A DNA stretch of 64,000 nt from Trogon surrucura (taxonomy: Eukaryota > Chordata > Aves > Trogoniformes > Trogonidae): contig CM036657.1 of the NCBI GenBank assembly GCA_020746105.1, forward strand, positions 7,727,087 through 7,791,086, in the 5' to 3' direction. Of the stretch, positions 14,320 to 57,800 are shown in pieces (position 1 is the first letter of the stretch; every line of letters starts with the position of its first letter). The notes under the pieces were generated by a model. That model was not told the origin of the DNA. It worked only from the letters and a program-made list of their open reading frames with translations, and made no database searches. The position numbers and the translations under genes are program-made.

Positions 14320-14321
14320 GA

Positions 14322-27179: not shown

Positions 27180-27181
27180 TC

Positions 27182-27369: not shown

Positions 27370-27374
27370 CCACG

Positions 27375-28432: not shown

Positions 28433-28548
28433 GATGGAGCGGTGTCATCAGAGAGGCTGTAATAGAGGGAGATTGGGAAGCAGCCAGTTCGATTGCGTGT
28501 CCTGTTATTATCAATAACGGACAAGGGACCTGGGAACCGCATGATTCT

Positions 28549-28852
28549 GCATGATGGGGCTGTGCAGCATCCTGTTACTTCAAGAGTGTAGCAGCAACAC
28601 AACCGTGCACTGGACCTGCCTGTTGAATCCCTTTGTTTCACTCAGTGACATGATGGGACTTTAAGTACCGATTACCAACGATGACATGGATTGGACTGGC
28701 AGAAGATGGTTATGGCTGATAGCAGAGCAATTATGGGAAAATGTAACTGTTTTCAGTGTTACCTGTTGTGCTGATATGTATCCTCTTTGTGTGACTAACA
28801 ATGAAGCTTATGTTGGTTGTGTAAGACTGTCTAATCAAAGCCACATAATAGG
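28549..28852 (+). pseudogene. env: ERV-B2 env surface-like fragment
   Basis: A frame of about 55 codons from 28686 contains RRWLWLIAEQLWENVTVF and a cysteine-containing segment (VTCCADMYPLCV) with an N-X-T site. It follows gag after a deletion and precedes segment K. Placement between pol-equivalent sequence and the transmembrane gene suggests surface Env, but no diagnostic motif settles this. The frame stops at 28893-28895, inside K. Confidence 0.5.
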
Positions 28853-29020
28853 TGTTAAGGTTTATATACTAACCAGGAGATTGATCTTTCTTTAGCTAAA
28901 AGCAAGGCAGAGAAACAAGCTGCCTTTTGCTTTGTTAGAAGTATGTGATTAAGGATCAAATTGATAGTGAGACTCCCTTGCATTCTTCCTTCAGCCCTGG
29001 CCAAGCTGTGAGAAGAATTC
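28853..29020 (+). repeat. LTR-like segment K in ERV-B2, left part
   Basis: Begins TGTTAAGG. The right part of the same segment resumes at 34061 after ERV-B3. Shares CTTTCTTTAGCTAAAAGCAA and GCCCTGGCCAAGCTGTG with the other copies. Confidence 0.75.
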
Positions 29021-29397
29021 TGAAGAGGGTCCTGTCGGAGAGCCGGTCAAGACAATGACAAATCCCACTGATATGGCTACAAGTAGTTCCCCCTTTATTG
29101 CTCCGGACAGCTCAAGATATACCGTTCAGCAGTGTCCCCGCGCCTGCCCCTTAACAGAGTAGGTCAGTTACAGGTTCACACGCGCCAGCGTTTTATTGGG
29201 TAGTGCCATTCCACTATGCAAGCGGCTCTCACCCCCCCTTTCTCCCCCTGGCAAGGCTCTTCACAAAACAGATAAAACCTCCTCCTCCCTGTGTTCCAAG
29301 GCAGCTTCAAGGACAGAGCCTCTGTTTAGGCCTACGCTGGGTTGTCCACGCTTTTAAAGTTATACCGCACCTCTGCTCCACAAGAAATTCCTCTACA
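29021..29397 (-). repeat. ERV-B3 3' LTR
   Basis: 377 bp, ends TGTAGAGG (5') and CCCTCTTCA (3') on the minus strand. AATAAA occurs on the minus strand near 29099 and 29197. Confidence 0.95.
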
Positions 29398-29575
29398 TAT
29401 CCCCCTTTTTCTTTTTGGACAACCCAGGCTTCATCAGCTAGCTTGCTTATCATTTTCTTGATTATATTTCTCAAACAACTAAACATAACTAAGCCTATAA
29501 CAATTAAAACTGCAATAACCAAAAATGTCTTAACTAAACTCTTAATTCATCCTGTCAAAGTTCTCACACCCATCA
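29398..29575 (-). pseudogene. env: ERV-B3 Env transmembrane stub
   Basis: Encodes the anchor VIAVLIVIGLVMFSC and tail ISKLADEAWVVQKEKGGY, which then runs into the LTR. The ectodomain with CX6CC is removed by the same 140-bp deletion as in ERV-B1. Confidence 0.82.
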
Positions 29576-29589
29576 CCCTAAATCATCCA

Positions 29590-29957
29590 GACCCGCAGTC
29601 GCTGGGGAGCCCCTGTTGCAGCGAGGTTTCTGGAGAACCCTCCCGACAATTGGGAAGTCCTACGCAGTGCGTCCACTCGTAGGTGAGGTTTCCGAAGTCA
29701 CTGCAAGAGGGTCCAACACTTATACTATTAAATAAACAACCTTACATATGTTGAATGCGGGAACATCTGGTGTTGTTTGCCCCGTTGAATTCTTCCCACA
29801 GCTTGGCCAGGGCTGAAGGAAGAATACAAGGGAGTCTCCCTATCTACTTTGGTCCTTAATCACACACTTCTAACAAAGCAAAAGGCAGCTGGTTTCCCCC
29901 ACCTTGCTTTTAGCTAAAGAAAGCTCACTCTGCTGGTTATTACCATCAACCCTAACA
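29590..29957 (-). repeat. LTR-like segment K in ERV-B3
   Basis: Starts TGTTAGGGTTGATGG on the minus strand, immediately after the RNase H motif SDSLYVV. Contains AGTATAAGTG near 29725, the TATA-like position of the other copies. Confidence 0.72.
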
Positions 29958-30720
29958 ACATATAAGGAATCAGAAATCACATTGAGAGGCTCTTTGCTCC
30001 AATTCTGGAAAGTCCAACATACAGCTTTCAGTTCGAGTACTTGTAAGCTATCTGCAACGTCACCCTGGATTGTATGATGCTTCCACGCTCCCTGTTGTTC
30101 CCAGACACCTGCTGCGCTTCTCGTCTTCCGCCCTGCGTCTTTGAAGACCGTCCTTCCATCCACTGGTTGCTTTGAGCACAGGGGTTTTTCTAGCCATTTG
30201 TGTTGCTCAATTACTTGCCACAGTGGGCCCTTAGGATGCTTGTTGTGAACCAGACCAGAGTAGCCCAGCGATGCTTCCTGGATTTTGATGGAGTGCCGCA
30301 GTTGCCATTCCAAGTCTTCATTTCTAACGGGAATACTAATGTCTGCCGGCTCCAACCCATCTATTTCCATTATTCGAGATCGGCCCTTTTGGATCAACGC
30401 GGCGATGGCTTCTGTTCTTTTCATTAGGCGAAATTTAGGTTGCACTGGTAAGAATACCCATTCTATTATTCTTGCTGACTCTCCAGGGGATTCCTCCCCC
30501 TTTTTCTTTTGCCATTGAAGCACAATGGCAAGAGGGTTGGAATCTGTATTGATGATAAACAATGACAGGGGGCGATTCTCAAGACGGCATGCACTCCATC
30601 CTGTTTGTAATTTAGCAGTTACTTGTTCAAGCACTTTTGTTTGTTCTGCTATTCACAGCCTGTCTTTAGTCATCGGTCACTGCTCCACCCATACAGGTAA
30701 TCTTTTGTATGGGTGGCTGT
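29958..30720 (-). pseudogene. pol: ERV-B3 pol, RT core deleted
   Basis: What remains is the RT connection (ALIQKGRSRIMEIDGLEPADI) and the start of RNase H (TVFKDAGRKT and SDSLYVV). Compared with ERV-B1, the fingers, palm and YMDD box are gone through a deletion near 30650-30720 that joins the first pol codons (ending IAEQ in B1) to TKALEQVTAK-like sequence. RNase H lacks its end, where segment K is fused. Integrase is absent. The first RNase H motif reads FKDAG where B1 has FTDAG. No enzyme activity is expected. Confidence 0.88.
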
Positions 30721-30733
30721 TCGGCAGTGGCCG

Positions 30734-31567
30734 TCATGATAAATGCTGATCAGTGGTTAATACCATTCCGAGTTGAGACAGCAAGTCTCTGCCTATCAGG
30801 CCTTGAAGAGTTGAAGGTAACTGCATTACATATGGCCGAAAGACTATTTGTTGTCCATCTTCAAAAACTATAGTCACAGGGTCTCTACTGGATTGAGGAG
30901 TTTTCATTCCTCCCACTCCCACAATTTGTGTCATGGGAGCCTGCAGGGGCCACGTGGGTGGCCAGTATGTTTGATTAATGATGGTGACATCCGCTCCGGT
31001 GTCAAGCATTGGTCTTAACTGAACTTGACTTTCCCCTCGTTGTAGGGTGACTCTTCTTTGTGGCTGGGAATTCATGTCTAGTGTCAAGAAGATGTCAAAT
31101 CCCGATGACCCAAAGCCGTCATCTCCTCTTTGCTTTTGTCCCTCTTTCGGATGTGACTGATGTGGATGGGCTGCTTCAAGGGCAACGATCTGGGCAATCT
31201 TGCTTCCTTTTGGAATGGTGACAGGTGGTTGTAATGCATAAGCCATAATCTTTATTTGACCTGTATAGCCGGCATCAATAACTCCCGGTAATACTACAAC
31301 TCCTTGTTTGCTGGTAGATGACCGTCCCAGCAGCAGCCCTCCAACAAAAGAGTCAGTTGAAAATAATGGGCCAAATGCAGTTGTCGGGATCAACGCTACT
31401 TGTCTGTCTTGCAGTGTAACTTCTACTGCGGTTGCCACATCCACGCCGAGGCTTCCCCAGGTAGCGGGTTTGTTTCGTTGTAGGAAACCGTCTGTGGCTT
31501 CGGTTGAGTTTGGGCACTGATTTGTGTCTTGGCGCGTGGCCCCTGCGCGCTGTGCTTGTAGTTTTCC
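30734..31567 (-). CDS. pro: ERV-B3 dUTPase-protease (open frame)
   Basis: Open on the minus strand after a -1 shift from gag (candidate site GGAAAAC at 31561-31567, the same as in B1). The dUTPase motifs GSLGVDVAT, LLGRSS, GVIDAGYTGQI, SKIAQI and GFGSSG are present; motif 3 reads GVIDAG where B1 and ERV-D have GVIDAD, which would remove a conserved Asp of that motif. Retropepsin has LDTGADVTII and GRDLLSQLG. The frame is intact while the neighbouring RT is deleted. Confidence 0.9.
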   Translation of the reverse strand, partial: GKLQAQRAGATRQDTNQCPNSTEATDGFLQRNKPATWGSLGVDVATAVEVTLQDRQVALIPTTAFGPLFSTDSFVGGLLLGRSSTSKQGVVVLPGVIDAGYTGQIKIMAYALQPPVTIPKGSKIAQIVALEAAHPHQSHPKEGQKQRGDDGFGSSGFDIFLTLDMNSQPQRRVTLQRGESQVQLRPMLDTGADVTIINQTYWPPTWPLQAPMTQIVGVGGMKTPQSSRDPVTIVFEDGQQIVFRPYVMQLPSTLQGLIGRDLLSQLGMVLTTDQHLS

Positions 31568-33654
31568 GACTTTCTGCATGCCACGGTAGCATGGGCGTCA
31601 CTGTTACATATGTGACACCATACAGTCTTTTGGCATGTTCTTCTCCAATGTCCGGATTCTCCGCAGCGAAAGCACAGTCCCGCTGCTGGCCCATTGGCTG
31701 CTTTTTTCTTCGGATTACCAAACCAGCTGGTTTTTCTTCCAGATAAAGCAGCTGCTATCACGTGTCCTTGCCTTTCAATGGCACCTTGCATGGCTGCAGT
31801 AAAGGCTGCAGCTTGGCTGCTTTGTTCTGCTCGTGATGCTCGTAATAACATTTCGTCCACTCCCGCGCCCTGTGGTAAGGTGGCCAAAATGGCTTTAGTA
31901 CTTGAATTGGAATTTTCAAAAGCAAGTGTACGGAACAAGTGTTCTTGCAATGGCTCAGTTAACTCGGTAGCGTCCTTTATGGCAGCAGACAATCGATCAA
32001 CAAATTGATTAAATGGCTCGGTCATCCCTTGTCGTACCGTTGCATACGGGGGTGATTTTTTCTTTTCTGGGACTGATAACAGGGCTTGATGAGCCAGAGT
32101 CTGAGAAACCTGATGTATGATTGTCGGATACGTCAGTTGGGTTGCAGTGGTGGCATAATTTCCGCTACCAGTCAACATATCTGCTTGTAGCCCATATAAA
32201 GGATCGTTAATTTCACGGTGTTTGTTGGCCTCTTCCAGAGCCAATCTTTTCCATTCTCTCTCCCACAGTAAATACTGTGATGGGCTTAATAATAACGAAG
32301 CAATATTAGTGCAGTCATTTGGGCACAATACGTCTGCTGTAAAAATGAATTGTATAATACTTCGTGCAGCTTCTGATCGGATGCCATGTGTGGTGACAGT
32401 CTGTTTCGCTTGCTGTAAGATCTTCCAATCATGTGGTTTCCAGGTCCCTTGTCCGTTATTAATAGTAACGGGACACGCAATCGAACTGGCTGCTTCCCAA
32501 TCTCCCTCTATTATGGCATCTCTGATGACACCGCTCCATCGCTGTTGCAGAGGATCCTTTATGGTTCGAGTCTGAAAGTCAGGCTTGAATGAGGGAGCTG
32601 ATGGTAGTGGGGGAGCTGAGGGTTCAACTGGTGGTACTATATGGGATAATGGTTGAATCTCTCGCGGGACCTTAGAAATGGTTTCTGGTTGCCTCCAAAG
32701 TGATGATGAGACTGGTTTAAGGGTTTCCTCTAATTCTTGCTGTCTAATTAATAATTCAGCGAGCTTGTTCAGGATCTCTTTCAGAGGTTCATTCAGATCT
32801 TCCTCTTTCTTGGTCCGAGGCCTCTCCATTCGCTGCATAACGTGATCATTACCTCTGACAGATTTGTCAGGACTCAGTTCTGATTCAGAATCCTCGTCGG
32901 AAAAGGGTATCAAAGGGTTAATTTTCGGGCGACAGTCGGCTCCGCCCTGTGCCTCCTCTTTCTGCTGGGCCGCGCCTCTCGAGTCCCGCGGCAGCGCCGC
33001 TTCCGGGTTTGGCTCAGTTCCAAGCGGCTTCTGTAACAAGTCTTTCAGAGAGGAGCACACCGGGGCCGCTGTACCCTTCATGGGGCGTGTCTGTCCTAGC
33101 CGAAAAAATGTCGCCAGTCGGGACGAGCAGGGGCTTTCTTCCTTTGCCTTTTTCCTTTCCTGCTCTCCCCCCAACGCTTCGATCGCCGCCGCGGCAACTT
33201 TATTTTCTGTTTGCATGATTTCTAGAGTGCGTGTTACGGTTTTCCAAACAGTTCCTAGTCCTTTCGCTTCTTTTCCTTCTTTTCCTCCCTCTAAAGTACA
33301 GTCCCACAATAGATTTCCTACTTCACGCCATTCCGTTGAGCTAAAGATTAACGACGGGTCGTTCATTTTCTCCCGCTTCCGAGCCCATTGGATCAGGGCC
33401 AATATATCTCGCTCCTTCACTTTTTCTCCTCTCTTAGAGAGTATATCAACAAGGAGGCGAGTTGCCGCGTCAGTTTCCATCGCGGTCTTACCTTGGCAGG
33501 GACTTGATCGGCTGCTCAAACTCTGGTGTCCGGTGCCCTTTTGGTCACACCTGGAATTCTCCTGCCTCCGGCTCTCCAGCTCCCAAATCGGCTCACGTCC
33601 GATGCTTTGGAGTCTTTCCATATTCAAGCAATCTGCATTTAAGCAATTCCCCAT
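31423..33654 (-). CDS. gag: ERV-B3 Gag polyprotein (open frame)
   Basis: A 743-codon open frame. The first ATG (33654) gives MGNCLNADC, with Gly2 suitable for N-myristoylation. A second ATG at 33480 (METDAATRLL) lies after a splice-donor-like site, so either may be the true start. Order: matrix, an acidic and proline-rich linker with two PSAP late-domain motifs, capsid with homology region (VRQGMTEPFNQFVDRL), and nucleocapsid with knuckles CFRCGESGHWRRTC and CHICNSDAHATVAC. It would assemble virions and bind genomic RNA. This is the only ERV-B gag here without a break, so it could still be translated if transcribed. Confidence 0.92.
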   Translation of the reverse strand: MGNCLNADCLNMERLQSIGREPIWELESRRQENSRCDQKGTGHQSLSSRSSPCQGKTAMETDAATRLLVDILSKRGEKVKERDILALIQWARKREKMNDPSLIFSSTEWREVGNLLWDCTLEGGKEGKEAKGLGTVWKTVTRTLEIMQTENKVAAAAIEALGGEQERKKAKEESPCSSRLATFFRLGQTRPMKGTAAPVCSSLKDLLQKPLGTEPNPEAALPRDSRGAAQQKEEAQGGADCRPKINPLIPFSDEDSESELSPDKSVRGNDHVMQRMERPRTKKEEDLNEPLKEILNKLAELLIRQQELEETLKPVSSSLWRQPETISKVPREIQPLSHIVPPVEPSAPPLPSAPSFKPDFQTRTIKDPLQQRWSGVIRDAIIEGDWEAASSIACPVTINNGQGTWKPHDWKILQQAKQTVTTHGIRSEAARSIIQFIFTADVLCPNDCTNIASLLLSPSQYLLWEREWKRLALEEANKHREINDPLYGLQADMLTGSGNYATTATQLTYPTIIHQVSQTLAHQALLSVPEKKKSPPYATVRQGMTEPFNQFVDRLSAAIKDATELTEPLQEHLFRTLAFENSNSSTKAILATLPQGAGVDEMLLRASRAEQSSQAAAFTAAMQGAIERQGHVIAAALSGRKTSWFGNPKKKAANGPAAGLCFRCGESGHWRRTCQKTVWCHICNSDAHATVACRKSENYKHSAQGPRAKTQISAQTQPKPQTVSYNETNPLPGEASAWMWQPQ

Positions 33655-33657
33655 TTT

Positions 33658-33675
33658 CAGCCTGTTCGGGTGCCA
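33658..33675 (-). promoter_or_regulatory. ERV-B3 primer binding site, tRNA-Lys type
   Basis: TGGCACCCGAACAGG on the minus strand, then diverging from the Lys3 site in the last bases. Confidence 0.85.
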
Positions 33676-33677
33676 GA

Positions 33678-34054
33678 TGAAGAGGGTCCTGTCGGAGAGC
33701 CGGTCAAGACAATGACAAATCTCACTGATATGGCTACAAGTAGTTCTCCCTTTATTGCTCCGGACAGCTCAAGATATACAGTTCAGCAGTGTCCCCGCGC
33801 CTGCCCCTTCACCGAGTTGGTCAGTTACAGGTTCACACGCGCCAGCGTTTTATTGGGTAGTGCCATTCCACTATGCAAGCGGCTCTCACCCCCCCTTTCT
33901 CCCCCTGGCAAGGCTCTTCACAAAACAGATAAAACCTCCTCCTCCCTGTGTTCCAAGGCAGCTTCAAGGACAGAGCCTCTGTTTAGGCCTAAGCTGGGTT
34001 GTCCACACTTTTAAAGTTATACCGCACCTCTGCTCCACAAGAAATTCCTCTACA
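33678..34054 (-). repeat. ERV-B3 5' LTR
   Basis: 377 bp, alignable base for base with 29021-29397 apart from about eight substitutions. Abuts the GAATTC duplication at 34055. Confidence 0.95.
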
Positions 34055-34060
34055 GAATTC

Positions 34061-39265: not shown

Positions 39266-39271
39266 AATAGC

Positions 39272-39673
39272 TGTTGCTGGCCTTGCTGGCGCTATAGCAT
39301 TGCAGCCTGTGTTTAAGAAAATACCTTAGATCCTTTGACCATTAAGGTCAGTCTGCCCTTGATGTGCTTCCTTGAAGCAAAACAAAGTCATAAATCTTTC
39401 CGGTTTGTCATTGAGAACAAAGGCACTGGACATCTGGAGATGCAACATCCTGATAGATTAACTATAGGTATATTAGATGTAACCGCACCAATCAGTAACT
39501 GTTGTAGTAGCTAGAATGTAATAATAACCAATGAGATAACAGAAAATGTAATGTACTGAGAGTTGAAAGAGTATAAATGCTTGGTAGAAAAGAATAAAGT
39601 TGAATCTGTTTGTTCACGCTCATATTGAGTTGTTGCCTGCAGTTCCTGTTTCTCCAGCATGAGGCTCCCCGCA
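39272..39673 (+). repeat. ERV-D 5' LTR
   Basis: 402 bp, TGTTGCTGG to CTCCCCGCA. CCAAT is present at 39528-39532, the TATA box GTATAAATGC at 39571-39580 and AATAAA at 39593-39598. The close spacing of TATA and AATAAA implies a very short R region, as in alpharetroviruses. Confidence 0.95.
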
Positions 39674-39783: not shown

Positions 39784-39796
39784 ATGACCGGTGAGT
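39784..39796 (+). promoter_or_regulatory. Candidate splice donor in ERV-D leader
   Basis: CCG/GTGAGT (cut after 39790) fits the donor consensus. An ATG at 39784 lies just before it, so spliced messages might borrow that start. The donor is 40 bases upstream of the gag ATG. Confidence 0.6.
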
Positions 39797-39830
39797 CGGA
39801 GCTCACAATACGAGCTGTTTTGTGCACGGG

Positions 39831-42026
39831 ATGGGAAGCGCTGCATCAGCGATTGAAAAGGCGACCGTGGAAGCCATTTTACGTGTGGTTCAGAGAGCGG
39901 GGGAATCGCTGGATCGAACCCTGCTGACAAACTTATTGCATTGGGCACGGCACCGTGGTTATTTAAATGACTCAACTGACGTGTTTAAAGATCCTGTGTG
40001 GAAGGAGGTGGGGCAAGATATATGGGAAGCAGTACAGACAGGGAATAAGGAAGCAAAAGCGATAGCCCTGACATATCGCCAGTTACGATTACTGATAGAA
40101 TGCATGGGAGCAGATGCTGAGGTAGAAGTTGCTGCTAACACACTGTATACAGCTGCTGCTGAGAAATTGGCTACTCCGTCTTCAGATTCCTCAGTAAATA
40201 ACTCACAAGATACACCTCTCCCGGTCGCAGCACCGGCACACCGAGGTCCTTATGATGATCTCATCCCACCATGGGAGCCACCCGAACCCACTCTGCCCCC
40301 ACCTCCCTCAGCTCCCCCTGGGGCCATTGACCCGGCGACAGTGCCGTTACCTGAAGATATGGAAGTCGATGAATCCCTAGAAATGTTGATTCAGAAACAG
40401 ACAGACGTTATGACCAAACTGTTAGAAGAAATGCAGCGATTGGATAAAGGGGCACAGTCTAACATAATTCGAGAAAAATACCGTAAAGCTCATCAAGCTA
40501 TAGTAGATGGACTCAAAAATTTTGAAAAGCAATTTGATAAGGCTGAATCTTCTGGTCCTCGACGTAATCGGCGTGTTTGGGTGATTAACATGTTAAAAAA
40601 CGAGGAATGGGACTATGAGTCAGCTAATCACTATTTAGAATCGAACGGAGAACCCCGACTAACAGAAACTGAGATAAGTGACATTCAGGCATATCTTAAG
40701 CGTAATCCACCTAAAAAAGGGGGGTTATATCATACTTTATCAAAATCAGATGGTAATGATGGTATATCTAGTATGTTACAAAAGTGGTGGAAAGGAGGCG
40801 GTGAGGGCGGGTCGCGTAAACTGCCGACAGAGGAGGAAATTCCCAAAGACCCTTCCTTTGATATGTCTAAACAGTGGAGAGGTGTTATTACCAACGCGGA
40901 ATTAACAGGGGATTTTCAGTTACTCGCTGCTCCTGTTATTCGAGATGCCCAAGGTGGTGGCAATTGGCACCCACTAGATTGGAATCTGATTTCACGTTTA
41001 CAGAAGGCGGTTTTAGACTACGGTATTGATAATCGTCTAGTTAAACGACAAATAGAGACTATTGTTAAACATCAGGAGTTAGTTCCCTCTGATATCAAGT
41101 CTATTTTTGAACTCATCTTGGGTCCTACAAGCTATATGCTATTTTTGCAGAAGTGGCAAGAATGTCTGGAGGCGGCACAGTTAGACAATTTGGGATTGCC
41201 TCCTGATGATCCTTTACGCTATACTAATCTGGACCAGCTCATGGGGCAAGGTCGTTTTATAGACCCACAACGCCAAGCAGCTTTGAACCCTCGCATTTTA
41301 GGTCAAAGTAAAGCTGCTGCGCTAGAAGCTTTCGCTGCACTTCCTCAAGTAGGGAAACCGCGACAACCGTACTTACAAATCCGACAAGGAGAGGATGAAG
41401 CCTTTTTGTCTTTTGTTGACAAAGTAAAGGAAGGAGTAGAGGCTGCCCCTGATATTCTCTATAATATGAAAGACACATTAGTTAAAGAAATAACCATTCA
41501 GAATGCTAACGCGACTTGTAGACACCTCATTGCAAGCCTCCCTTCTGGTTCATCTCTTACACAAATTATCGAACGTTGCTCTCGCGCTCCTATGGAAACA
41601 GAAAAGGAAAAAGCTGCAATACATGCTACTGCTCTAGCTGCCGCCCTAACAAAGAGTCAAAAATCTAATACTGATGCTTGTTATAATTGTGGCCACACAG
41701 GTCATTTTCGAAAACATTGTCCACTACGTAATCAAAAACATTCTCCTTCTAATCCTACTACCACTACTACTTTTGTTGGTTCTTGTCACCGCTGTGATAA
41801 ATTTGGTCATCGGGCCAATGAGTGTCGATCTAAATTTAAAAAAGACGGAACTCCTTTGTCGGGAAACGGGAAGGGCCGCATGGGGGGCGCGGCGACTCTT
41901 CCCCACCAAAACCCCTCACAAGTCATCCAACCGCCCAGGAATCCAAACTGGACCCCCTCGGCAATAGAGGCTGCCTCTCCACAATGTGTGCAGCCACCAA
42001 AGGAAGCGCCGGAATCGATCTGGTAA
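39831..42026 (+). CDS. gag: ERV-D Gag polyprotein, intact
   Basis: 731 codons from ATG 39831; MGSAAS gives a myristoylation signal for membrane targeting. Matrix covers roughly residues 1-110. A proline-rich linker holds PSAP near residue 160, the ESCRT-recruiting late motif. A p12/p10-like region follows with charged segments. Capsid starts near residue 340 (FDMSKQWRGVITNAEL) and has the major homology region IRQGEDEAFLSFVDKVKEG near 520. Nucleocapsid has two knuckles, CYNCGHTGHFRKHC and CHRCDKFGHRANEC. The 3' end overlaps pro, reached by a -1 shift at 41861. No stop or frameshift interrupts it. Family placement is beta-like by its two knuckles and dUTPase-bearing pro. Confidence 0.95.
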   Translation: MGSAASAIEKATVEAILRVVQRAGESLDRTLLTNLLHWARHRGYLNDSTDVFKDPVWKEVGQDIWEAVQTGNKEAKAIALTYRQLRLLIECMGADAEVEVAANTLYTAAAEKLATPSSDSSVNNSQDTPLPVAAPAHRGPYDDLIPPWEPPEPTLPPPPSAPPGAIDPATVPLPEDMEVDESLEMLIQKQTDVMTKLLEEMQRLDKGAQSNIIREKYRKAHQAIVDGLKNFEKQFDKAESSGPRRNRRVWVINMLKNEEWDYESANHYLESNGEPRLTETEISDIQAYLKRNPPKKGGLYHTLSKSDGNDGISSMLQKWWKGGGEGGSRKLPTEEEIPKDPSFDMSKQWRGVITNAELTGDFQLLAAPVIRDAQGGGNWHPLDWNLISRLQKAVLDYGIDNRLVKRQIETIVKHQELVPSDIKSIFELILGPTSYMLFLQKWQECLEAAQLDNLGLPPDDPLRYTNLDQLMGQGRFIDPQRQAALNPRILGQSKAAALEAFAALPQVGKPRQPYLQIRQGEDEAFLSFVDKVKEGVEAAPDILYNMKDTLVKEITIQNANATCRHLIASLPSGSSLTQIIERCSRAPMETEKEKAAIHATALAAALTKSQKSNTDACYNCGHTGHFRKHCPLRNQKHSPSNPTTTTTFVGSCHRCDKFGHRANECRSKFKKDGTPLSGNGKGRMGGAATLPHQNPSQVIQPPRNPNWTPSAIEAASPQCVQPPKEAPESIW
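41861..41867 (+). promoter_or_regulatory. Gag-Pro -1 frameshift site GGGAAAC
   Basis: G GGA AAC stands in the gag frame exactly as the X XXY YYZ rule needs, and the -1 frame is open from here to the end of protease. The heptamer is known from gag-pro junctions of simian betaretroviruses. GC-rich sequence follows that could form the stimulating structure. Confidence 0.85.
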
Positions 42027-42709
42027 CAGCCGAGTCTATTACGGTATCTGATGATTCCGTACATCTAATAAATTCTACTAGTTCTGGTCCACTTGGGAAT
42101 GGGTTGGCAGCACTATTGCTTGGAAGATCCTCTGCAACAAAGCAAGGTATATTCGTACAACCAGGTGTTATTGATGCAGACCATGTGGGAGTTATTAAAA
42201 TTATGGTTAGAGTGTTTTTACCACCTTTGTTTATTCCAAAAAGGAGTGTTATTGCTCAACTTATACCTTTCTATCCTCAAGTACCACAAGAATCCCGCTC
42301 AAATGATATACGACAAGGAGGTTTTGGAAGTACGGGTCCTCTAACGGCTTTTGCTGAACTCTTGTCATCTAACAAACCCCTGAGAAAGGTAACCATTACC
42401 CTACAATCAAATTGTGGTGAAAATAACTCTTCTTTTCAGGCAGAAATGATGTTAGATACTGGTTCAGACATTATCATAATTCCTATGTCAGCGTGGCCCG
42501 CTTCTTGGCCTACAACAATATTACAAGAAAAGATCCTCGGAATCGCTGGTTGTGGTTCCACATCTCAAAGCAAGAATTTTGTATCCATTACAGATAGCGA
42601 GAAAAATCAAGCGTTTGTTAAACCTTATGTCATGAACACCCCCCTGTGGATCATCGGTCGCGATGTGTTAAGTCAGTGGAATGTCGTCCTTACCAGCCAC
42701 CATTTTTAG
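41868..42709 (+). CDS. pro: ERV-D dUTPase-protease, intact
   Basis: Expressed as Gag-Pro through the GGGAAAC shift; the recognisable protein starts near 41984. All five dUTPase motifs are present: GSAGIDLVTA, LLGRSS, GVIDADHVGVI, RSVIAQL and GFGSTG. Retropepsin follows with catalytic LDTGSDIIII (about 42451-42480) and GRDVLSQW. It would cut Gag and Pol after budding, while dUTPase keeps dUTP low during reverse transcription. Stop TAG at 42707-42709, with pol in the next -1 frame. No break seen. Confidence 0.93.
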
Positions 42710-45700
42710 TGATGGCCGCTGAGCAAAAGGATGCTCGACCCACAATTAAGCTGTCCTGAATTACGGAAGAGCCTGTGCGGGTTGCTCAGTGGCCCATCCC
42801 AGCAGAAAAATTAGAGCATCTACATGAATTAGTAAATGAACAATTACAATTGGGACATTTAAAAATATCTCACAGCCCCTGGAATACCCCTGTTTTTGTA
42901 ATTCAAAAAAAGTCTGGAAAGTGGCGTTTATTGCATGATTTAAGAGCAGTTAATGAACAAATGCTGCCATTTGGGGCCCTTCAACCGGGTATTCCGTCAC
43001 CTGCTGGACTCCCAAAAGAGTATCATCTCTTTGTAATTGATATTAAAGATTGTTTCTTTAGTATTCCTTTACATCCAGAGGATACTAAGCGGTTTGCCTT
43101 CAGTTTACCATCTATAAACAGTAACGCCCCAGAGGAAGTCAGGGCAGTGGAGGAGTATGCTTTAGTCGATGAGGACTGGGTTAGGGACCAATTAAGCAAT
43201 CTGGACATCCATAAATCCATGGGTCCAGACGGGATGCATCCATGGGTGCTGAGGGAGCTGGCTGATGTCATTGCTAGACCACTCTCCATCATCTTTGCCA
43301 AGTCTTGGGAGACGGGAGAGGTGCCTGAGGACTGGAGGGAAGCAAATGTCACTCCAGTCTTCAAAAAGGGCAAGAAGGAGGACCCGGGAAACTATAGACC
43401 GGTCAGCCTCACCTCCATCCCTGGGAAAGTGATGGAACGACTTATCCTTGGTGCCATCTCAAGGCATATCAGGGATAAGAGGGTCATTAGAGACAGTCAA
43501 CATGGCTTCACCAAAGGGAAGTCGTGCTTGACTAACCTCATAGCCTTTTATGAGGATATAACAAGGTGGATAGATGATGGCCGAGTGGTGGATGTGGTCT
43601 ACCTTGACTTCAGTAAAGCATTTGACACAGTCTCCCACAGCATCCTTGCTGCTAAACTGCAGAAGTGTGGTCTAGACTCTCGGGTAGTGAGGTGGACTGC
43701 GAACTGGCTGAGGGGAAGAAGCCAAAGAGTTTTGGTCAATGGGGCAGAGTCTGGTTGGAGGCCTGTATCCAGTGGAGTGCCTCAAGGGTCGGTACTGGGA
43801 CCAGTATTATTCAATATATTCATCGATGACTTGGATGAGGGACTAGAGAGTACTATCAGCAAGTTTGCTGATGACACCAAGCTGGGAGGAGTGGCTGACA
43901 CACCAGAAGGCTGTGCTGCCATCCAGCGAGACCTGGACAGGCTGGAGCGTTGGGCGGGGAAAAATTTAATGAAATATAACAAGGGTAAATGTAGGGTCTT
44001 GCATCTGGGTAGGAACAACCCCAGGTTCCAGTATAAGTTGGGGAATGACTTATTAGAGAGTAGTGTAGGGGAAAGGGACCTGGGAGTCTTGGTGGACAGC
44101 AGGATGACCATGAGCCAGCAGTGTGCCCTTGTGGCCAGGAAGGCCAATGGCATCCTGGGGTGTATTAGAAGGGGGGTGGTTAGTAGGTCGAGAGAGGTTC
44201 TCCTTCCCCTCTACTCTGCCCTGGTGAGACCCCATCTGGAATACTGTGTCCAGTTCTGGGCCCCTCAGTTCAAGAAAGACAGGGAACTGCTGGAGAGAGT
44301 CCAGCACAGGGCAACTAGGATGATGGAGTGGAGCATCTCCCTTATGAGAAAAGACTGAAGGAGCTGGGGCTCTTTAGTTTGGAGAAGAGGAGGCTGAGGG
44401 GTGACCTCATTAATGTTTACAAATATATCAAGGGTGAGTGTCACGAGGATGGAGCCAGGCTCTTCTCGGTGACAACCACTGATAGGACAAGGGGTAATGG
44501 GCTGAAACTGGAACATAAGAGGTTCCGCTTAAACTCGAGAAGAAACTTCTTCTCAGTGAGGGTGACGGAGCCCTGGAACAGGCTGCCCAGAGAGGTTGTG
44601 GAGTCTCCTTCTCTGGAGACATTCAAGACCTGCCTGGACACGTTCCTGTGTGGCATTATCTAGGCATTCCTGCTCTTGCAGGGGGATTGGACTTGATGAT
44701 CTTTCGAGGTCCCTTCCAATCCCTAACATTCTATGATTCTATGATTCTATGAAATGATATGAATGGGTCGTTCTCCCACAAGGTATGCGTAACAGTCCTA
44801 CTATTTGTCAATGGTTTGTGGATCAAGCATTGCATCAGTGAAGGGAAAATAATCCTAATCTTCTCACATATCACTACATGGACGACATTCTAGTGGCAAG
44901 CAAACAACCTTTGTCTATTGACAAGGAGAAGGAATTGTTGTCCAATCTTGAACAGTGGGGGTTACGCGTTGCAGAAGAAAAAATCCAACGAACTGAACCT
45001 TGGTTATACCTAGGTTTCGAAGTTACCAAAAATCGATTTAAACCTCAAAAGTTAACAATGCATACAGTAATTCAAAATGTGAATGATGTACAAAAACTGT
45101 TAGGTGACATTCAATATGTTCGTGCATGCGCCGGTATCACTAATTCAGATTTAAACCCTCTTCGCTCTTTGTTAGAAGGTTCCGCAAATATTACTGACCA
45201 GCGTACGCTTACCGAGGAAGGTAAGACAGCACTTGATATAATCTCTCGAAAAATAAATAACATTTGTGTGTATCGATTTGATCCACAACTCATCATTGGC
45301 ATTTACGTTTTTAATTTAAAAGCAGAGCAAGTGGCCCTTATCGGCCAGACCACTTCTGATGGCAAACAGTTTTTTCCTTTGGAATGGGTTTTTACTAAAA
45401 GTGTACCTACTGTCTCTGTTCTTCGATGCATTGATAATTTGGGTGAACTTATTCTAAAAGCTAAGCAGCGTGTTCGACAAGTTTTCGGTACTGAACCTAC
45501 TACTGTGACACTTCCATTTAAAATGTCTCTTCTTATAGAAGAATGGCAATTGACTTCTGTTATTTTTGCTACTGCTGTGTTAGGTTTAACTATTGATAAC
45601 CATTATCCACAAAGCCCAATATTTTCTGTGAATCTTCCTTTCCGGAGTGCCAGTGTTCGTTCAGATTCCCCGCTCAAGGACTGTCCTACTGTATTTACTG

Positions 45701-47031
45701 ATGCCAGTGGTAAAACCTCAAAATATGTTTTTTCTGTGAAAGTCGAGGGAAAATGGCAGTCTACTGTGTATACTGCACTTGGAATGTCTGTACAAATTTT
45801 AGAATTGAAAGCAGTTGTACTTGCATTTGAACATTTTAACTCTACACCGTTTAATCTTGTTTCAGATTCTCTTTATGTTAGCTCTATTCTTGAAAGAATT
45901 ACTGATGCGCTACTGGGTAAGTTTGCCAACCCTCTTATTGAAAAAGAAATACTTTACTTGTTAAATTTAGTTAATAGCCGTCATTGTCCTTTTTTCTCTA
46001 CTCACATTCGTAGTCATACCCAATTACCTGGATTTCTCAGTACAGGTAATTCTGTGATTGATCAGGCTGTATCAGCCCCAGTAGTAGGGCTGACTCCTTT
46101 TACCCAAGCTGAACTTTCGCATCAGTTTTTTCATCAATCAGCACGCAGTTTACAAAAGGAATTTGATATTCCTCGTCATATGGCCCGTGGCATTATCGCT
46201 ATGTGTCCAGACTGTTCCAAATTACCTCCTTTACAACAGACTGGTACCAACCCTCGTGGATTGGAGGCTGGTAAATTATTTCAATCTGACGTTACAATTT
46301 ATCCTGCTTTTGGTCGGTGGCGTTTTGTTCATGTTACTATTGATTCCTAGAGTAAACTTGTGTGGGCCTCCGCAATGACAAATAGCAAAGGCCGCACGAC
46401 ATGTCGCCGTTGGCTGGAAGCATTTGCCGTTTTAGGCAAGCCCGATATCCTCAAAACGGATAATGGTACCAATTAAATTGGCCGAGTAGCTCAGTCTTTT
46501 TTATCTGCCTGGGGCGTTCAACACCAATTAGGTGTCCCTTATAACAGCACTGGACAAGCCATTGTCGAACGAAAACATCAAGACCTTAAACGCTTATTCC
46601 GAGCGTTACGAAAAGAGGGGGAACATACCCTCACACCTCAGGAAATCGTTATGAAAGCGGTATACGTTCACAATTGGAAGATGTACATCGACGTGGTAGA
46701 TACTAAACAACAACTGACGCCCATTCAACTTCATCATCAAAGGAAAGGACCCTTATTAACACACGATGTTTCTGTACAAATTTGGGACCCCGCTACACAA
46801 AACTGGTTTGGACCGGTGAGATTATTAACTTGGGGGTGGGGTTATACTTGTGTTTTTCTAGGTGACAAATCATCGTGGATACCCGCGAAGTGGGTGAAAC
46901 CGTGGATAGCGAAACATACTGGAGGACATAGCAGCCCAATTCAGGACGAGGTGGCGCAGGGAACTGCGTCTACGGCCTCTTCGCTCGATACTGGAACGAG
47001 AACTACGGACATTATTACCACTGGTACCTGA
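42706..47031 (+). pseudogene. pol: ERV-D pol, four stops and a CR1 insertion
   Basis: Third frame, again -1 to pro. A TGA at 42757-42759 ends the first codons. RT runs from [14 protein letters not shown], with motif [14 protein letters not shown], to about 43125, where a CR1 intervenes. It resumes at about 44756 ([16 protein letters not shown]), meets TGA at 44839-44841, then shows YHYMDDILVA. RNase H has FTDASGKT, ELKAV and SDSLYV. Integrase has the H-X3-H and C-X2-C zinc site, then D of QSDVT, D of KTDNG and E of IVERKH, so the DDE triad is retained. Stops at 46348-46350 (TAG) and 46474-46476 (TAA) fall in the core. The C-terminal domain has IWDPATQNWFGPVRL. The frame ends at 47031. Confidence 0.94.
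43126..44755 (+). mobile_element. CR1 LINE inserted in ERV-D pol
   Basis: Plus-strand CR1 starting in the linker before RT ([16 protein letters not shown]). It has [22 protein letters not shown] and FADDTK, and a frameshift near 44320 (a 4-base loss around GATGATGGAGTGG relative to sister copies). The 3' end has three ATTCTATG units. By chance its frame continues the ERV pol frame from 42775 to 44358. The insertion must post-date the young ERV-D provirus. Confidence 0.94.
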
Positions 47032-47377
47032 TCCTGTAGCGTTTCGGAGAGAAGTTGAGAAGCTTACAATTACTAAAGTGTGTGGACTACACTGGCCACC
47101 TTGTGGCTGCACAGTGTGGCTCCAAGGACATTTTCACTGTGGAGGGTGTGGGAAACTGTTTTTCTTAAATAATAGTAGACAATGTTTTTTAGGTTGTTTA
47201 ATTTGTAGGAATAGGTTTGTCCCTGTTATACTTAATGAACTCCGTGTTTAGTTAAACTATCCAGAGTTGTCTTTAACTGAAACTGAACTATTGTTTGAAT
47301 CACGAGAAGGAATTAGCCTTGTTATGGACACAAATCAATTCTATTATGAACCAACTAATTACTGTCAAACATACTGA
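46910..47377 (+). pseudogene. Cysteine-rich frame between pol and env, function unknown
   Basis: Open from 46910 to a TAG at 47249-47251 (113 codons), then open again in the same frame to TGA 47375-47377. It overlaps the end of pol in another frame. There is no ATG near its start, so splicing would be needed. The early part is arginine-dense (TRWRRELRLRPLR). The middle has eight cysteines in about 42 residues, including PPCGC, HCGGC and CLIC, spaced like a zinc-binding fold. Past the TAG the codons are acidic (LTETELLFESREG). It is not like any Gag, Pol or Env domain that I recognise. It could be an accessory regulator or a degenerate env leader; env has its own ATG and signal peptide further on. 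Confidence 0.5.
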
Positions 47378-47418
47378 TATTGTACAGTCTTATTATCTGA
47401 AGAATTGCAAAATTCATA

Positions 47419-48658
47419 ATGATCCGCCTGATGTTACTCACCTGTTTATGGATTAATTGGACATTAGCAGACTTCCCTATGACGAATTTTTGGGTACGAT
47501 GGGCAAATCAGACTGGCAATGATGCCTTTTGCTTACATTTAACATCAGCAACTGATCCCTTTAAGACATGTTTAATTGGAACACCTGTGTCCCCTTTTCA
47601 ATTGGGTGACTGTAGAAAAGCAAGTAATAGCAGCCACTGTCTTGCCATGATTGTTAAGAATTTATCAGTGCCACTTCTTTGGGATCCCCAAGAGCTGAAT
47701 TTACTAGACAGTCAAAAACCAAATGGGTCTGGGTGTATTTACTTTGGTTCCTGGAATTTGTCACTATCTCCAAAACAAAATTGGCTGACTCCCCATAAAA
47801 ATTTTAATCATTCTGAGTATTGTGGATCCCGCCCTTATGGCTGGGGACCTGGACATTTATATTTAAACATCTCCTTTCCTCTTTCGTTACCGTCCCACAT
47901 TTACTTGATCTGTGGCGACCGTGCTTGGCAAGGAATTCCTAGCTTTGCTCACGGTGGTCCTTGTTACCTTGGTCATTTAGCCTTACTTGCTCCATCTAAA
48001 GAATTTTTAGTAACCTTGAATCACACCCGAACTAAAAGAAGTGTTTCTCTATTGCCTCCCGACTGTAATGACGATGTAGAGCTATGGGGTCCCACAGCCA
48101 AGGTGTTTGCTTCCTTAATTCCTGGCATTGGCACTTCTCATGCTTTACAACAAATTCAAAGACTGGCATGTTGGACCGTAAAACAAGCTAATGTCACTAC
48201 TCAAGTAATATCCCAACTAGCCCAAGATATGAATAGTCTGCATCAAGCGGTCCTTCAAAATCGTGCTGCCATTGATTTTTTTATTACTAGCTCAAGGTAA
48301 AGGTTGTGAGGAAGTTCAAGGGATGTGCTGTTTTAACCTGTCGGATCATAGTGACTCGATTCACAAACAACTATATTGGCTTCAACAACATACACAAAAA
48401 ATTACTGTAGGCCATAATCCTTTTGATGACTGGCTTTTGTCTTTTGGAATTTCTGCCTGGCTTAAAGATGGAATTAAGATGGTTATAATTATTATTGTTA
48501 TCGTATTGATTGTAATTTGTATGGGACCTTGCATCATCCAGTGCTTCTCTGCTCAGATCAAAAGGCTAGCTGATGCTGTGTTTGATAAAAGAGGGGGAGA
48601 TGTTGCTGGCCTTGCTGGCGCTATAGCATTGCAGCCTGTGTTTAAGAAAATACCTTAG
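47419..48658 (+). pseudogene. env: ERV-D envelope, alpharetrovirus-like, one frameshift
   Basis: ATG 47419 starts a signal peptide (MIRLMLLTCLWINWTLA). The surface subunit has many N-X-S/T sites and cysteines, and ends at the furin site RTKR (residues about 204-207). The transmembrane subunit has an internal fusion loop bounded by cysteines (CNDDVELW to LACW), as in alpharetroviruses, then a heptad region and LQNRAAIDF. A run of seven Ts (48276-48282) puts the rest out of frame and a stop follows at 48298-48300. The other frame continues with CEEVQGMCC (CX6CC), SDHSDSIHKQL, a membrane span (MVIIIIVIVLIVICM) and a tail reaching 48658, 58 bases inside the 3' LTR. Confidence 0.94.
48588..48600 (+). 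promoter_or_regulatory. ERV-D polypurine tract
   Basis: AAAAGAGGGGGAGA lies directly before the 3' LTR and inside the env tail. Confidence 0.88.
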
Positions 48659-49003
48659 ATCCTTTGACCATTAAGGTCAGTCTGCCCTTGGTGTGCTTCC
48701 TTGAAGCAAAAACAAAGTCATAAATCTTTCCGGTTTGTCATTGAGAACAAAGGCACTGGACATCTGGAGATGCAACATCCTGATAGATTAACTATAGGTA
48801 TATTAGATGTAACAGCACCAATCAGTAACTGTTGTAGTAGCTAGAATGTAATAATAACCAATGAGATAACAGAAAATGTAATGTACTGAGAGTTGAAAGA
48901 GTATAAATGCTTGGTAGAAAAGAATAAAGTTGAATCTGTTTGTTCACGCTCATATTGAGTCGTTGCCTGCAGTTCCTGTTTCTCCAGCATGAGGCTCCCC
49001 GCA
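48601..49003 (+). repeat. ERV-D 3' LTR
   Basis: 403 bp, same elements as the 5' LTR: TATA box 48901-48910 and AATAAA 48923-48928. Four differences from the 5' copy. Its first 58 bases also encode the Env C-terminus. Confidence 0.95.
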
Positions 49004-49009
49004 AATAAC

Positions 49010-49264
49010 AGTGATTTTTAAAGTTGCTCTTCTATTTTGTAAACCTCTCAGACACATGGTATCAAGTTTCAACATTGTTGTGTGAACAATGTCAGGCAAG
49101 AATCAAAATTCAGGGCCAAGGGATTGGATCAGCTGTAAAGATCAGGTTTCCTTTTAAGGAAGATATTGAATGCCACCCAAGCAAGTGGACCACCATGGAA
49201 AAAGGCATTAAATACCGGAGAGAACTAGCTGTGAAAGAGGTGATATACAGCAATACACAAAGAG
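49010..49264. other. Unassigned sequence before the Tc1 fragment
   Basis: A weak open frame spans 49024-49278 but has no recognised domain. It may be an internal part of the Tc1 element or another old repeat. I cannot say which. Confidence 0.35.
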
Positions 49265-49665
49265 TTGTCAACTGTTAAAAAAATCTGCCTTTTGGAGTGG
49301 CCAAGTCAGTGCCCAGACCTCAACCCAACAGAGATGCTCTGGAATGACTTGGAGAGAGCCATACACATGAGACGTCCAAAGAATATGACAGAGCTAAAGC
49401 AGTTCTGCCAGGAAGAATGGGCTAAAATCCCTCCTGAAGGATGTGCAGCTCTGACCCACAGCTACAGGGAGCGCCTGGTTGAGGTTATTGCTGCCAAGGG
49501 AGGTCAACCAGTTATTGATTCCAAGGGTTCACTTACTTTATCCAATGGCATTTTGAATGTTGAATGAGCTTGTTCAATAAAGACATGGAGGATCAGACTT
49601 GTTGTTGTATTATTATTTTAGGCACATTCTATTTGTCAATACTCTTGACTTAGATGACGGTTACA
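49265..49665 (+). pseudogene. Tc1-like transposase, C-terminal part, and 3' end
   Basis: About 90 codons match the end of Tc1/mariner transposases: WPSQCPDLNPTEMLWNDL, holding the last acidic residue of the DDE/DD34E triad (E in PTEMLW), then RRPKNMTELKQF and the C-terminal SYRERLVEVIAAKGG. The frame ends at 49565-49567 and an AATAAAG follows. The DNA-binding domains and first two catalytic residues are missing, so it is a 5'-deleted copy. It sits between ERV-D and a CR1. The enzyme would cut and paste the element at TA sites. Confidence 0.88.
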
Positions 49666-49669
49666 TCAT

Positions 49670-51163
49670 CCACGGGTGCTGAGGGAGCTGGCTGATGTCA
49701 TTGCTAGACCACTCTCCATCATCTTTGCCAAGTCTTGGGAGACGGGAGAGGTGCCTGAGGACTGGAGGGAAGCAAATGTCACTCCAGTCTTCAAAAAGGG
49801 CAAGAAGGAGGACTCGGGAAACTATAGACCGGTCAGCCTCACCACCATCCCTGGGAAAGTGATGGAACGACTTATCCTTGGTGCCATCTCAAGGCATATC
49901 AAGGATAAGAGGGTCATTAGAGACAGTCAACATGGCTTCACCAAGGGGAAGTCGTGCTTGACTAACCTCATAGCCTTTTATGAGGATATAACAAGGTGGA
50001 TAGATGATGGCAGAGCGGTGGATGTGGTCTACCTTGACTTCAGTAAAGCATTTGACACAGTCTCCCACAGCATCCTTGCTGCTAAACTGAGGAAGTGTGG
50101 TCTAGACTCTCGGGTAGTGAGGTGGACTGTGAACCGGCTAAGGGAAAGAAACCAGAGAGTCGTGGTCAATGGGGCGGAGTCTGGTTGGAGGCCTGTATCC
50201 AGTGGAGTCCCTCAAGGGTCGGTACTGGGACCAGTATTATTCAATATATTCATCGATGACTTGGATGAGGGACTAGAGAGTACTATCAGCAAGTTTGCTG
50301 ATGACACCAAGCTGGGAGGAGTGGCTGTGCTGCCATTCAGCGAGATCTGGACAGGCTGGAGGGTTGGGCAGGGAAAAATTTAATGAAATATAACAAGGGT
50401 AAGTGTAGAGTCTTGCATCTGGACAGGAACAACCCCAGGTTCCAGTATAGGTTGGGAAACAACCTGTTTGAGAGCAGGGTAGGGGAAAGGGACCTGGGAG
50501 TCTTGGTGGACAGCAGGATGACCATGAGCCAGCAATGTGCCCTTGTGGCCAGGAAGGCCAATGGCATCCTGGGGTGTATTAGAAGGGGGGTGGTTAGTAG
50601 GTCGAGAGAGGTTCTCCTTCCCCTCTACTCTGCCCTGGTGAGACCCCATCTGGAATATTGTGTCCAGTTCTGGGCCCCTCAGTTCAAGAAAGACAGGGAA
50701 CTGCTGGAGAGAGTCCAGCACAGGGCAACTAGGATGATTCAGGGAGTGGAGCATCTCCCTTATGAGGAAAGGCTGAGGGAGCTGGGGCTCTTTAGTTTGG
50801 AGAAGAGGAGGCTGAGGGGTGACCTCATTAATGTTTACAAATATATCAAGGGTGAGTGTCACGAGGATGGAGCCAGGCTCTTCTCGGTGACAACCACTGA
50901 TAGGACAAGGGGTAATGGGCTGAAACTGGAACATAAGAGGTTCCGCTTAAACTCGAGAAGAAACTTCTTCTCAGTGAGGGTGACGGAACAGTGGCACAGG
51001 CTGCCCAGGGAGGTTGTGGAGTCTCCTTCTCTGGAGACATTCAAGACCTGCCTGGACACGTTCCTATGTAGCATTATCTAGGCGTTCCTGCTCTGGCAGG
51101 GGGATTGGACTTGATGATCTTTCGAGGTCCCTTCCAATCCCTGACATTCTGTGATTCTGTGAT
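49670..51163 (+). mobile_element. CR1 LINE, 5'-truncated
   Basis: Plus strand, from [17 protein letters not shown] to the terminal repeat near 51163 (TTCTGTGATTCTGTGATTTG). RT motifs [19 protein letters not shown] and FADDTK are present. The coding frame is broken near 50325, where bases encoding part of ADSPEGCA are lost, and continues at 50383-51081. Confidence 0.93.
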
Positions 51164-51167
51164 TTGT

Positions 51168-54668: not shown

Positions 54669-55597
54669 GTATCACAGTATGCTAGCGATTGGAAGGGACC
54701 TCAAAAGATCATCTAGTCCAATCCCCCTGCCAGAGCAGGAATGCCCAGATGATGTTACACAGGAAGGCGTCCAGGAGGGTTTTGAATGTCTCCTCTCCAA
54801 GGAGACTCCACAACCTCCCTGGGCAGCCTGTGCCAGTGGTCTGTCACCCTCACTGAGAAGAAGTTTTTTCTCAAGTTTAAGCGGAACCTCTTGTGTTCCA
54901 GCTTGATTCCATTACCCCTTGTCCTCTCATTGTTTGCCACCGAGAAGAGCCTGGCTCAATCCTCGTGACACTCCCCCTTTATATATTTATAAACACTAAT
55001 AAGGTCACCCCTCAGCCTCCTCTTCTCCAAACTAAAGAGTGCCAGCTCCCTCAGCCTTTCCTCATAAGGGAGATGCTCCACTCCCTGAATCATCCTAGTT
55101 GCCCTGTGCTGGACTCTCTCCAGCAGTTCCCTGTCTTTCTTGAACTGAGGGGCCCAGAACTGGACACAATATTCCAGATGGGGTCTCACCAGGGCAGAGT
55201 AGAGGGGAAGGAGAACCTCTCTCGACCTACTAACCACCCCCCTTCTAATATACCCCAGGATGCCATTGGCCTTCCTGGCCACAAGGGCACATTGCTGGCT
55301 CATGGTCATCCTGCTGTCCACCAAGACTCCCAGGTCCCTTTCCCCTACACTGCTCTCTAATAAGTCATTCCCCAACTTATACTGGAACCTGGGGTTGTTC
55401 CTGTCCAGATGCAAGACTCTACACTTACCCTTGTTATATTTCATTAATTTTTCCCCACCCAACTCTCCAGCCTGTCCAGGTTTCGCTGGATGGCAGCACA
55501 GCCTTCTGGGCTGTCAGCCACTCCTCCCAGCTTGGTGTCATCAGCAAACTTGCTGATAGTACTCTCTAGTCCCTCATCTAAGTCATCGATGAATATA
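54669..55597 (-). mobile_element. CR1 LINE fragment
   Basis: Minus strand, from the 3' terminus (TATCACAGTATGCTAGCGATTGG) to the RT region around FADDTKLGG, where it is cut by the next CR1. Coding frames 55462-54956 and 54940-54755 are broken. Confidence 0.9.
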
Positions 55598-57800
55598 TCA
55601 TAGAATCATAGAATCATAGAATGTTAGGGATTGGAAGGGACCTCGAAAGATCATCAAGTCCAATCCCCCTGCCAGAGCAGGAATGCCTAGACTATGCCAC
55701 ATAGGAATGTGTCCAGGCACGTCTTGAATGTCTCCAGAGAAGGAGACTCCACAACCTCCCCGGGCAGCCTGTGCCAGTGTTCCGTCACCCTCACTGAGAA
55801 GTTTCTTCTCGAGTTTAAGCGGAACCTCTTATGTTCCAGTTTCAGCCCATTACCCCTTGTCCTATCAGTGGTTGTCACCGAGAAGAGCCTGGCTCCATCC
55901 TTGTGACACTCCCCCTTGATATATTTGTAAACACTAATGAGGTCACCCCTCAGCCTCCTCTTCTCCAAACTAAAGAGCCCCAGCTCCCTCAGTCTTTTTT
56001 CATAAGGGAGATGCTCCACTCCCTGAATCATCCTAGTTGCCCTGTGCTGGACTCTCTCCAGCAGTTCCCTGTCTTTCTTGAACTGAGGGGCCCAGAACTG
56101 GACACAGTATTCCAGATGGGGTCTCACCAGGGCAGAGTAGAGGGGAAGGAGAACCTCTCTCGACCTACTAACCACCCCCCTTCTAATACACCCCAGGATG
56201 CCATTGGCCTTCTTGGCCACAAGGGCACAGTGCTGGCTCATGGTCATCCTGCTGTCCACCAGGACCCCCACGTCCCTTTCCCCTACACTGCTCTCTAACA
56301 GGTTGTTTCCCAACCTATACTGGAACCTGGGGTTGTTCCTGTCTAGATGTAGGACCCTACACTTTCCCTTGTTATATTTCATTAAATTTTTCCCCGCCCA
56401 ACCCTCCAGCCTGTCCAGATCTCGCTGGATGGCAGCACAGCCTTCTGGGCTGTCAGCCACTCCTCCCAGCTTGGTGTCATCAGCAAATTTGCTGATAGTA
56501 CTCTCTAGTCCGTCATCCAAGTCATTGATGAATATATTGAATAATACTGGTCCCAGTACTGACCCTTGAGGGACTCCACTGGATACAGGCCTCCAACCAG
56601 ACTCCGCCCCATTGACCACGACTCTCTGGCTTCTTTCCCTTAGCCAGTTCGCAGTCCACCTCACTACCCGAGAGTCTAGACCACACTTCCTCAGTTTAGC
56701 AGCAAGGATGCTGTGGGAGACTGTGTCAAATGCTTTACTGAAGTCAAGGTAGACCACATCCACCGCTCTGCCATCATCTATCCACCTTGTTATATCCTCG
56801 TAAAAGGCTATGAGGTTAGTCAAGCACGACTTCCCCTTGGTGAAGCCATGTTGACTGTCTCTAATGACCCTCTTATCCCTGATATGCCTTGAGATGGCAC
56901 CAAGGATAAGTCATTCCATCACTTTCCCAGGGATGGAGGTGAGGCTGACCGGTCTATAGTTTCCCGAGTCCTCCTTCTTGCCCTTTTTGAAGACTGGAGT
57001 GACATTTGCTTCCCTCCAGTCCTCAGGCACCTCTCCCGTCTCCCAAGACTTGGCAAAGATGATGGAGAGTGGTCTAGCAATGACATCAGCCAGCTCCCTC
57101 AGCACCCGTGGATGCATCCCATCTGGACCCATGGATTTATGGATGTCCAGATTGCTTAATTGGTCCCTAACCCAGTCCTCATCGACTAAAGCAAACTCCT
57201 CCACTGCCCTGACTTCCTCTGGGGCCTCAGGGGAACGGGGCTCCTCAGGACAGCCTCCGGCAGAGTAGACAGAGGCAAAGAAGGCATTCAGTAACTCTGC
57301 CTTCTCTGTATCTTCTGTCACCAAGGCACCCACCTCATTCATCAGTGGACCTACATTGCCTCTGGTGTTAGTTTTATCTGCCACGTATTTGAAAAAGCTC
57401 TTCCTGTTGTCCTTGACCCCTCTCGCCAGGTTCAATTCTAGGGAGGCCTTTGCTTTCCTAGTTGCCTCCCTACATCCTTGGACAACAGCCTTATATTCTT
57501 CCCAAGTGGCCAGCCCCGCCTTCCAAGATCTGTAAATTCTCCTCTTGCCCTTGAGCTTACCCAGCAGATCCCTGTTTAGCCACGCAGGTCTCCTGGCTCC
57601 CTTCCTTGACTTCCTACATGTCGGGATGCTCTGATCTTGAGCACGGTAGAAGCAGTCTCTGAACACTAACCAACTATCTTGGGTCCCTTTACCTTCAAAC
57701 AGCCTTGCCCATGGGATTTTCTCTAGTAATTGTTTGAAAAATCCAAAGTTTGCCTTGGTGAAGTCCAGGGTTGCAATTCTGCCATGCTCACTACTTTCCA
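55598..57800 (-). mobile_element. CR1 LINE, longest copy
   Basis: Minus strand, about 2.2 kb. The 3' end has repeated ATCATAGA units at 55598-55620. The frame 57807-56911 covers the linker after the endonuclease and the RT start ([30 protein letters not shown]). A TGA replaces an Arg codon at about 56908-56910. The frame 56823-55687 continues with [19 protein letters not shown] and FADDTK to the C-terminus. Endonuclease and ORF1 are missing. A 3-base loss near 55800 removes one residue. Confidence 0.93.

Follow-up and report, generated by a model that had tools for sequence, protein, structure and literature searches.

Does the open reading frame that lies between pol and env of an avian endogenous retrovirus (ERV) represent an additional gene, or has it stayed open by chance? 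The frame, here called frame X, is open on the plus strand for 113 codons in the window, by which we mean the whole stretch of 64,000 nucleotides that was analysed. A first-pass annotation had described 113 open codons, a single TAG and 41 further open codons that together overlap the end of pol, with an arginine-dense segment, eight spaced cysteines and no ATG, and we recovered each of these traits at the following positions:

46910..47248, plus strand: frame X, a candidate accessory frame with an arginine-rich first half and an eight-cysteine second half, without an ATG
47249..47251, plus strand: the TAG that closes frame X
47252..47374, plus strand: 41 more open codons in the phase of frame X, acidic, which may or may not belong to it

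The 41-codon extension is ended by a TGA at 47375-47377. The cysteines occupy residues 58, 65, 67, 77, 80, 92, 96 and 99, with the spacing given originally. The pol frame stops at 47031 and shares its last 122 bases with frame X, this overlap making up the first third of the frame. No ATG occurs in any frame from 46767 to 47181, and the first one in the phase of frame X, at 47324, is past the TAG. Frame X is an extra open reading frame outside gag, pro, pol and env, as are the accessory genes of complex retroviruses.

Judged by its sequence matches, the element that carries frame X is a class II provirus of birds, of mixed alpha/beta type, with these landmarks:

39269..39673, plus strand: 5' LTR
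46477..47028, plus strand: C-terminal part of integrase; solved integrases match it as far as about 46917, and the remaining tail overlaps frame X
47419..48300, plus strand: start and SU part of env, with its own ATG, a signal-peptide-like start and an alpha-type gp85 match
48598..49003, plus strand: 3' LTR

Alignment of the two LTRs shows differences at 5 of 406 columns, which makes this a fairly young provirus, and the flanking AATAGC and AATAAC, read by eye, point to a target duplication of 6 bases in which one base has changed. The sequence behind the 5' LTR resembles what we take to be the tRNA-Trp primer site of avian retroviruses. Gag contains p24 (Gag_p24, of betaretrovirus type) and two zinc-knuckle matches, and a dUTPase is fused to the protease in one frame, which is again the betaretrovirus type. 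The env product is of alpharetrovirus type by its gp85 match (PF03708, E 1e-14). The integrase piece matches 118 solved sequences, with RSV integrase among the 60 matches listed and the best two, labelled 'Integrase' alone in the database, presumably being MMTV; these matches end about where frame X opens. The single Rfam match in the provirus, to the RSV_RNA stability element RF01417, falls at 42812-43103 in the RT-coding part of pol with 69.4 bits, below the curated 105, suggesting that this segment is akin to alpharetroviruses. Pol is interrupted by a LINE copy at 43126-44755 and also has stop codons in its frame at 46348 and 46474, and env shifts frame between about 48233 and 48298. The TM frame of env continues for about 60 bases into the 3' LTR (48598-48658) before its stop.

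Several other elements share the window. RT-encoding LINE copies, which we take to be CR1-like, lie at 49667-51164, 55595-57225 and 25311-26537 in addition to the presumed CR1 inside pol, and are about 95-96% identical to one another. Further class II ERV pieces, most of them in minus orientation, lie at 8600-14560 and 26770-34060, and a 3.3-kb stretch at 11269-14548 is 94% identical to 30641-33905. An open frame of 107 codons at 49244-49567 looks, we presume, like the end of a Tc1/mariner-type transposase.

We considered whether frame X has stayed open by chance within the leader, untranslated, of the env mRNA, in which case the splice acceptor at 46862 would serve env, and a CpG-rich and then TG-rich composition would yield the arginine and cysteine codons. 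We give this reading somewhat less than an even chance. The length of the frame stands against it, as a run of at least 113 open codons appeared in 199 of 20,000 first-order Markov sequences (any of three forward frames, 620 bases), about a 1% event; frame X was picked by the first-pass annotation for looking odd, so this and every other P value is optimistic. That the frame stays open through the pol overlap is unremarkable (P 0.25). The cysteines fit a chance frame better: TGT and TGC are counted 8/4/4 times in the three frames, a weak preference for the frame of X, and among 225 open frames simulated at a length of 72 codons, 15 had at least eight cysteines, indicating that the TG-rich local composition explains much of the cysteine richness. 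Codon usage, scored after training on genes of the same element, also sides with chance. The score of frame X is negative both in the overlap (-3.7, fourth of six frames) and behind it (-4.4, third of six), and does not support a coding status, while the 41-codon extension scores +3.5, the best of the six frames there.

The arginines of frame X weigh on the other side. Fixing the amino acids of the integrase tail (40 codons) and sampling synonymous codons according to the usage of the element itself, we found that the overlap encodes 10 arginines in frame X against 2.3 expected, a count reached in 0, 1 and 0 of 20,000 draws in three runs; nine of the ten lie behind a CTG at 46919 and one before it. 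The corresponding z of 4.6 exceeds all 164 control windows from gag, pol and env (overlapping, two frames each), in which the maximum was 3.1 for any residue and 2.2 for arginine, and this speaks against a frame open by chance. Composition accounts for part of the excess. Nine CpG dinucleotides lie in the overlap, seven at positions 1-2 and two at positions 2-3 of X codons and none between codons. NCG codons stand at 7/18 in the pol tail against 52/501 elsewhere in the element (P 0.002), but do not differ from the 7/29 of the adjacent integrase part (P 0.34), which is likewise CpG-rich, and a CpG richness common to both is what a chance frame would show. When CpG codons were weighted six-fold, giving nine CpG on average, at least 10 arginines had a P of 0.12, again as a chance frame would have it; among draws with exactly nine CpG at this weight, 94 of 3,508 reached that number (P 0.03), and over weights from 1 to 8 the conditional share ran from 0/158 to 133/3,060. 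Allowing for local CpG richness thus weakens the arginine excess, and the choice of arginine-encoding codons in the overlap is suggestive of dual coding without being proof of it.

A frame that lacks an ATG raises the question of how it could be expressed. Using a generic splice-site scoring matrix, with LINE positions excluded, we identified the following signals:

39727: weaker leader donor, rank 14 of 469
39791..39796, plus strand: strong leader donor, rank 2 of 469, just after the ATG at 39784
46862, plus strand: first base after the best acceptor of the provirus, rank 1 of 466, 48 bases upstream of frame X and probably shared with the env mRNA
46919..46921, plus strand: CTG, the possible start of frame X, with A at -3 and G at +4

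The acceptor is not specific to frame X, since a retrovirus of this kind must have an acceptor for env close to where pol ends. The CTG is in frame X, in good context, 57 bases behind that acceptor, and CUG starts occur in retroviral accessory genes. Both the acceptor and most of frame X lie in a 416-base stretch without ATG, longer than any other in the provirus, which is a 2-7% event for its own side of the provirus and a 3-10% event for both sides. Four ATGs lie between 47182 and the env ATG, an odd feature for a plain env leader and hence a point against chance.

The idea that a spliced exon must supply the start codon needed refinement. The acceptors at 46932 and 46935 would bring a leader ATG into the phase of X, but they rank 375 and 335 of 466 and were rejected, whereas CTG 46919 offers a start behind the best acceptor. 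Joining the leader ATG at 39784 to 46862 was rejected as well, as phase arithmetic places it in the pol frame and not in X; by the same arithmetic this product would continue for about 58 codons in the frame of the integrase tail. The ATG lies two codons before the strong donor (39784-39796), a layout that we take to resemble the gag-AUG/donor arrangement of Rous sarcoma virus. A frameshift from pol into X is not favoured, X being the +1 frame of pol and not the usual -1. We also rejected an RNA element in place of a gene, as the fold z is 0.04 for 47032-47418 and the sole Rfam match is in pol.

Searches for relatives of X returned little. Among 5.8 billion proteins, frame X had 14 candidates, none at E <=10, and its cysteine-rich part alone had no candidate, as would be expected of a chance frame. 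X matched no Pfam family, including those of Tat/Rev/Rex/Vif type, and nothing in NCBIfam; matches to PDB sequences were at chance level (best E 0.48). X had no relative in viral or prokaryote contigs, and none came from scans of the viral contigs with the integrase, Env, an RT-to-integrase piece and an Env alignment (the window Env with 12 of 120 listed proteins); nor did any of the scanned collections yield a related provirus. Within the window, tblastn of X gave itself and chance matches, and the other class II pieces there are distant from its provirus. By comparison, the same protein collection contains 128 proteins related to Env at E 0.001 or better, from many birds, and the best of the 120 listed, from Manacus vitellinus, is 62% identical. 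The lack of X relatives is nonetheless weak evidence, as annotation seldom includes frames without an ATG, and relatives that evolve fast escape the word filter. Two AlphaFold2 models made without an alignment, both of low confidence (pLDDT 42 and 58), predict helices in the arginine-rich part and short strands in the cysteine-rich part, and Foldseek gave no hit at E <=0.001 among the 3 and 43 matches listed for them. The literature, in the portions available, describes no similar open reading frame in a bird ERV.

Two further origins bear on these searches. Long env leaders and signal peptides are found in alpharetroviruses and among the Rec/Rem-type signal peptides, and X might be the remnant of such a leader, shifted out of frame. 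Its position and basic stretch would suit this origin, as would P0014, which is strongly basic and is one of three Env relatives with an N terminus of more than 45 residues (by a simple pattern, among the matches listed). We regard it as improbable, because env begins at 47419 with an ATG of its own and a signal-peptide-like sequence, the frames of X and env differ, with stops of both frames between them, unlike the in-frame arrangement of Rec and Rem, and more lesions would be needed than the LTR divergence of 5/406 columns predicts. Against the 120 listed Env relatives, moreover, X reached a best E of 3.0 and the 41-codon part one of 0.40.

Alternatively, X might be a host exon or domain captured between pol and env, for which CrocERV29, a crocodilian ERV carrying a captured KIT-ligand open reading frame in that interval, is a precedent in the available text (PMC4299795). 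The CxxC pairs of X do align weakly with NADH pyrophosphatase (PDB sequences, E 1.8). Since the search of the 5.8-billion-protein collection found no host protein, and the first third of X overlaps pol, which excludes a simple insertion, this is the least probable of the explanations that we weighed, and a very unlikely one.

Our preferred reading is that an accessory gene belonging to no known family has X as its coding exon, overprinted on the tail of integrase in an avian class II retrovirus. We put it just short of an even chance, about equally likely as the chance frame. The narrow preference comes from the coincidence of the frame's length, its arginine coding, its position and its splice context; the chance frame has to accommodate the same coincidence of several modest signals. 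The first-pass view of X as a separate coding frame therefore stands in part, with open length, arginine codon choice and the top-ranked acceptor upstream in its favour and codon usage against it.

If X is such an accessory gene, its mRNA would, going by the splice-site scores, be spliced once, from one of the two leader donors (39791 or 39727) to acceptor 46862. Translation might start at CTG 46919, yielding a basic product some 110 residues long. The arginine-rich first half of this product may act in RNA binding or as a nuclear signal, in keeping with a regulatory role, and the cysteine-rich half may bind zinc. Env could be translated by leaky scanning of an mRNA with that acceptor, or from an mRNA using the later acceptor at 47209; for vpu-env, the available part of PMC2657110 documents leaky scanning on a bicistronic mRNA of a retrovirus. 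By analogy, the function of X would be nucleic-acid binding with a zinc-stabilised domain. The suggestion of a regulator of export or transcription is an analogy of composition, and the searches gave no match to a family, fold or motif in its favour. Going further, this mixed alpha/beta avian lineage may have been a complex retrovirus whose regulator, rich in arginine and cysteine and started at a CUG, had no kinship with Tat, Rev, Rex, Rem or host proteins, a possibility that we consider doubtful. If real, an overprinted regulator of this kind would show that complexity arose independently here, and would supply a dated example of a gene born within an overlap.

Lentiviruses and deltaretroviruses have separate regulators; we know of none established for alpha- or beta-type retroviruses of birds. 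Tat/Rev, Rex/Tax and Rem resemble X in being small, basic, cysteine-rich products encoded between pol and env, in overlapping the end of pol and in probably needing a spliced mRNA. X differs from them in having no Pfam match, a host element of mixed alpha/beta type and no demonstrated second exon, and in its order, arginine-rich first and then cysteine-rich. Among mammalian betaretroviruses, MMTV has a separate regulator, according to the available part of PMC3026287. The black swan retrovirus MT138119 is avian and clusters with bird ERVs, and the available part of its report describes Gag, Pol and Env only (PMC9001828). Open reading frames were called there from ATG starts with a minimum size of 300, according to the same text, so a frame without an ATG would have gone unlisted. 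One Env from a metagenome, P0005 (Retroviridae sp.), shares 43% identity with the provirus Env over 90% of the query and is possibly that of MT138119. CrocERV29, as far as its available text goes, is alike in having an additional open reading frame between pol and env of an ERV; its frame is a host gene, whereas X, for which no host relative was found, overlaps the integrase.
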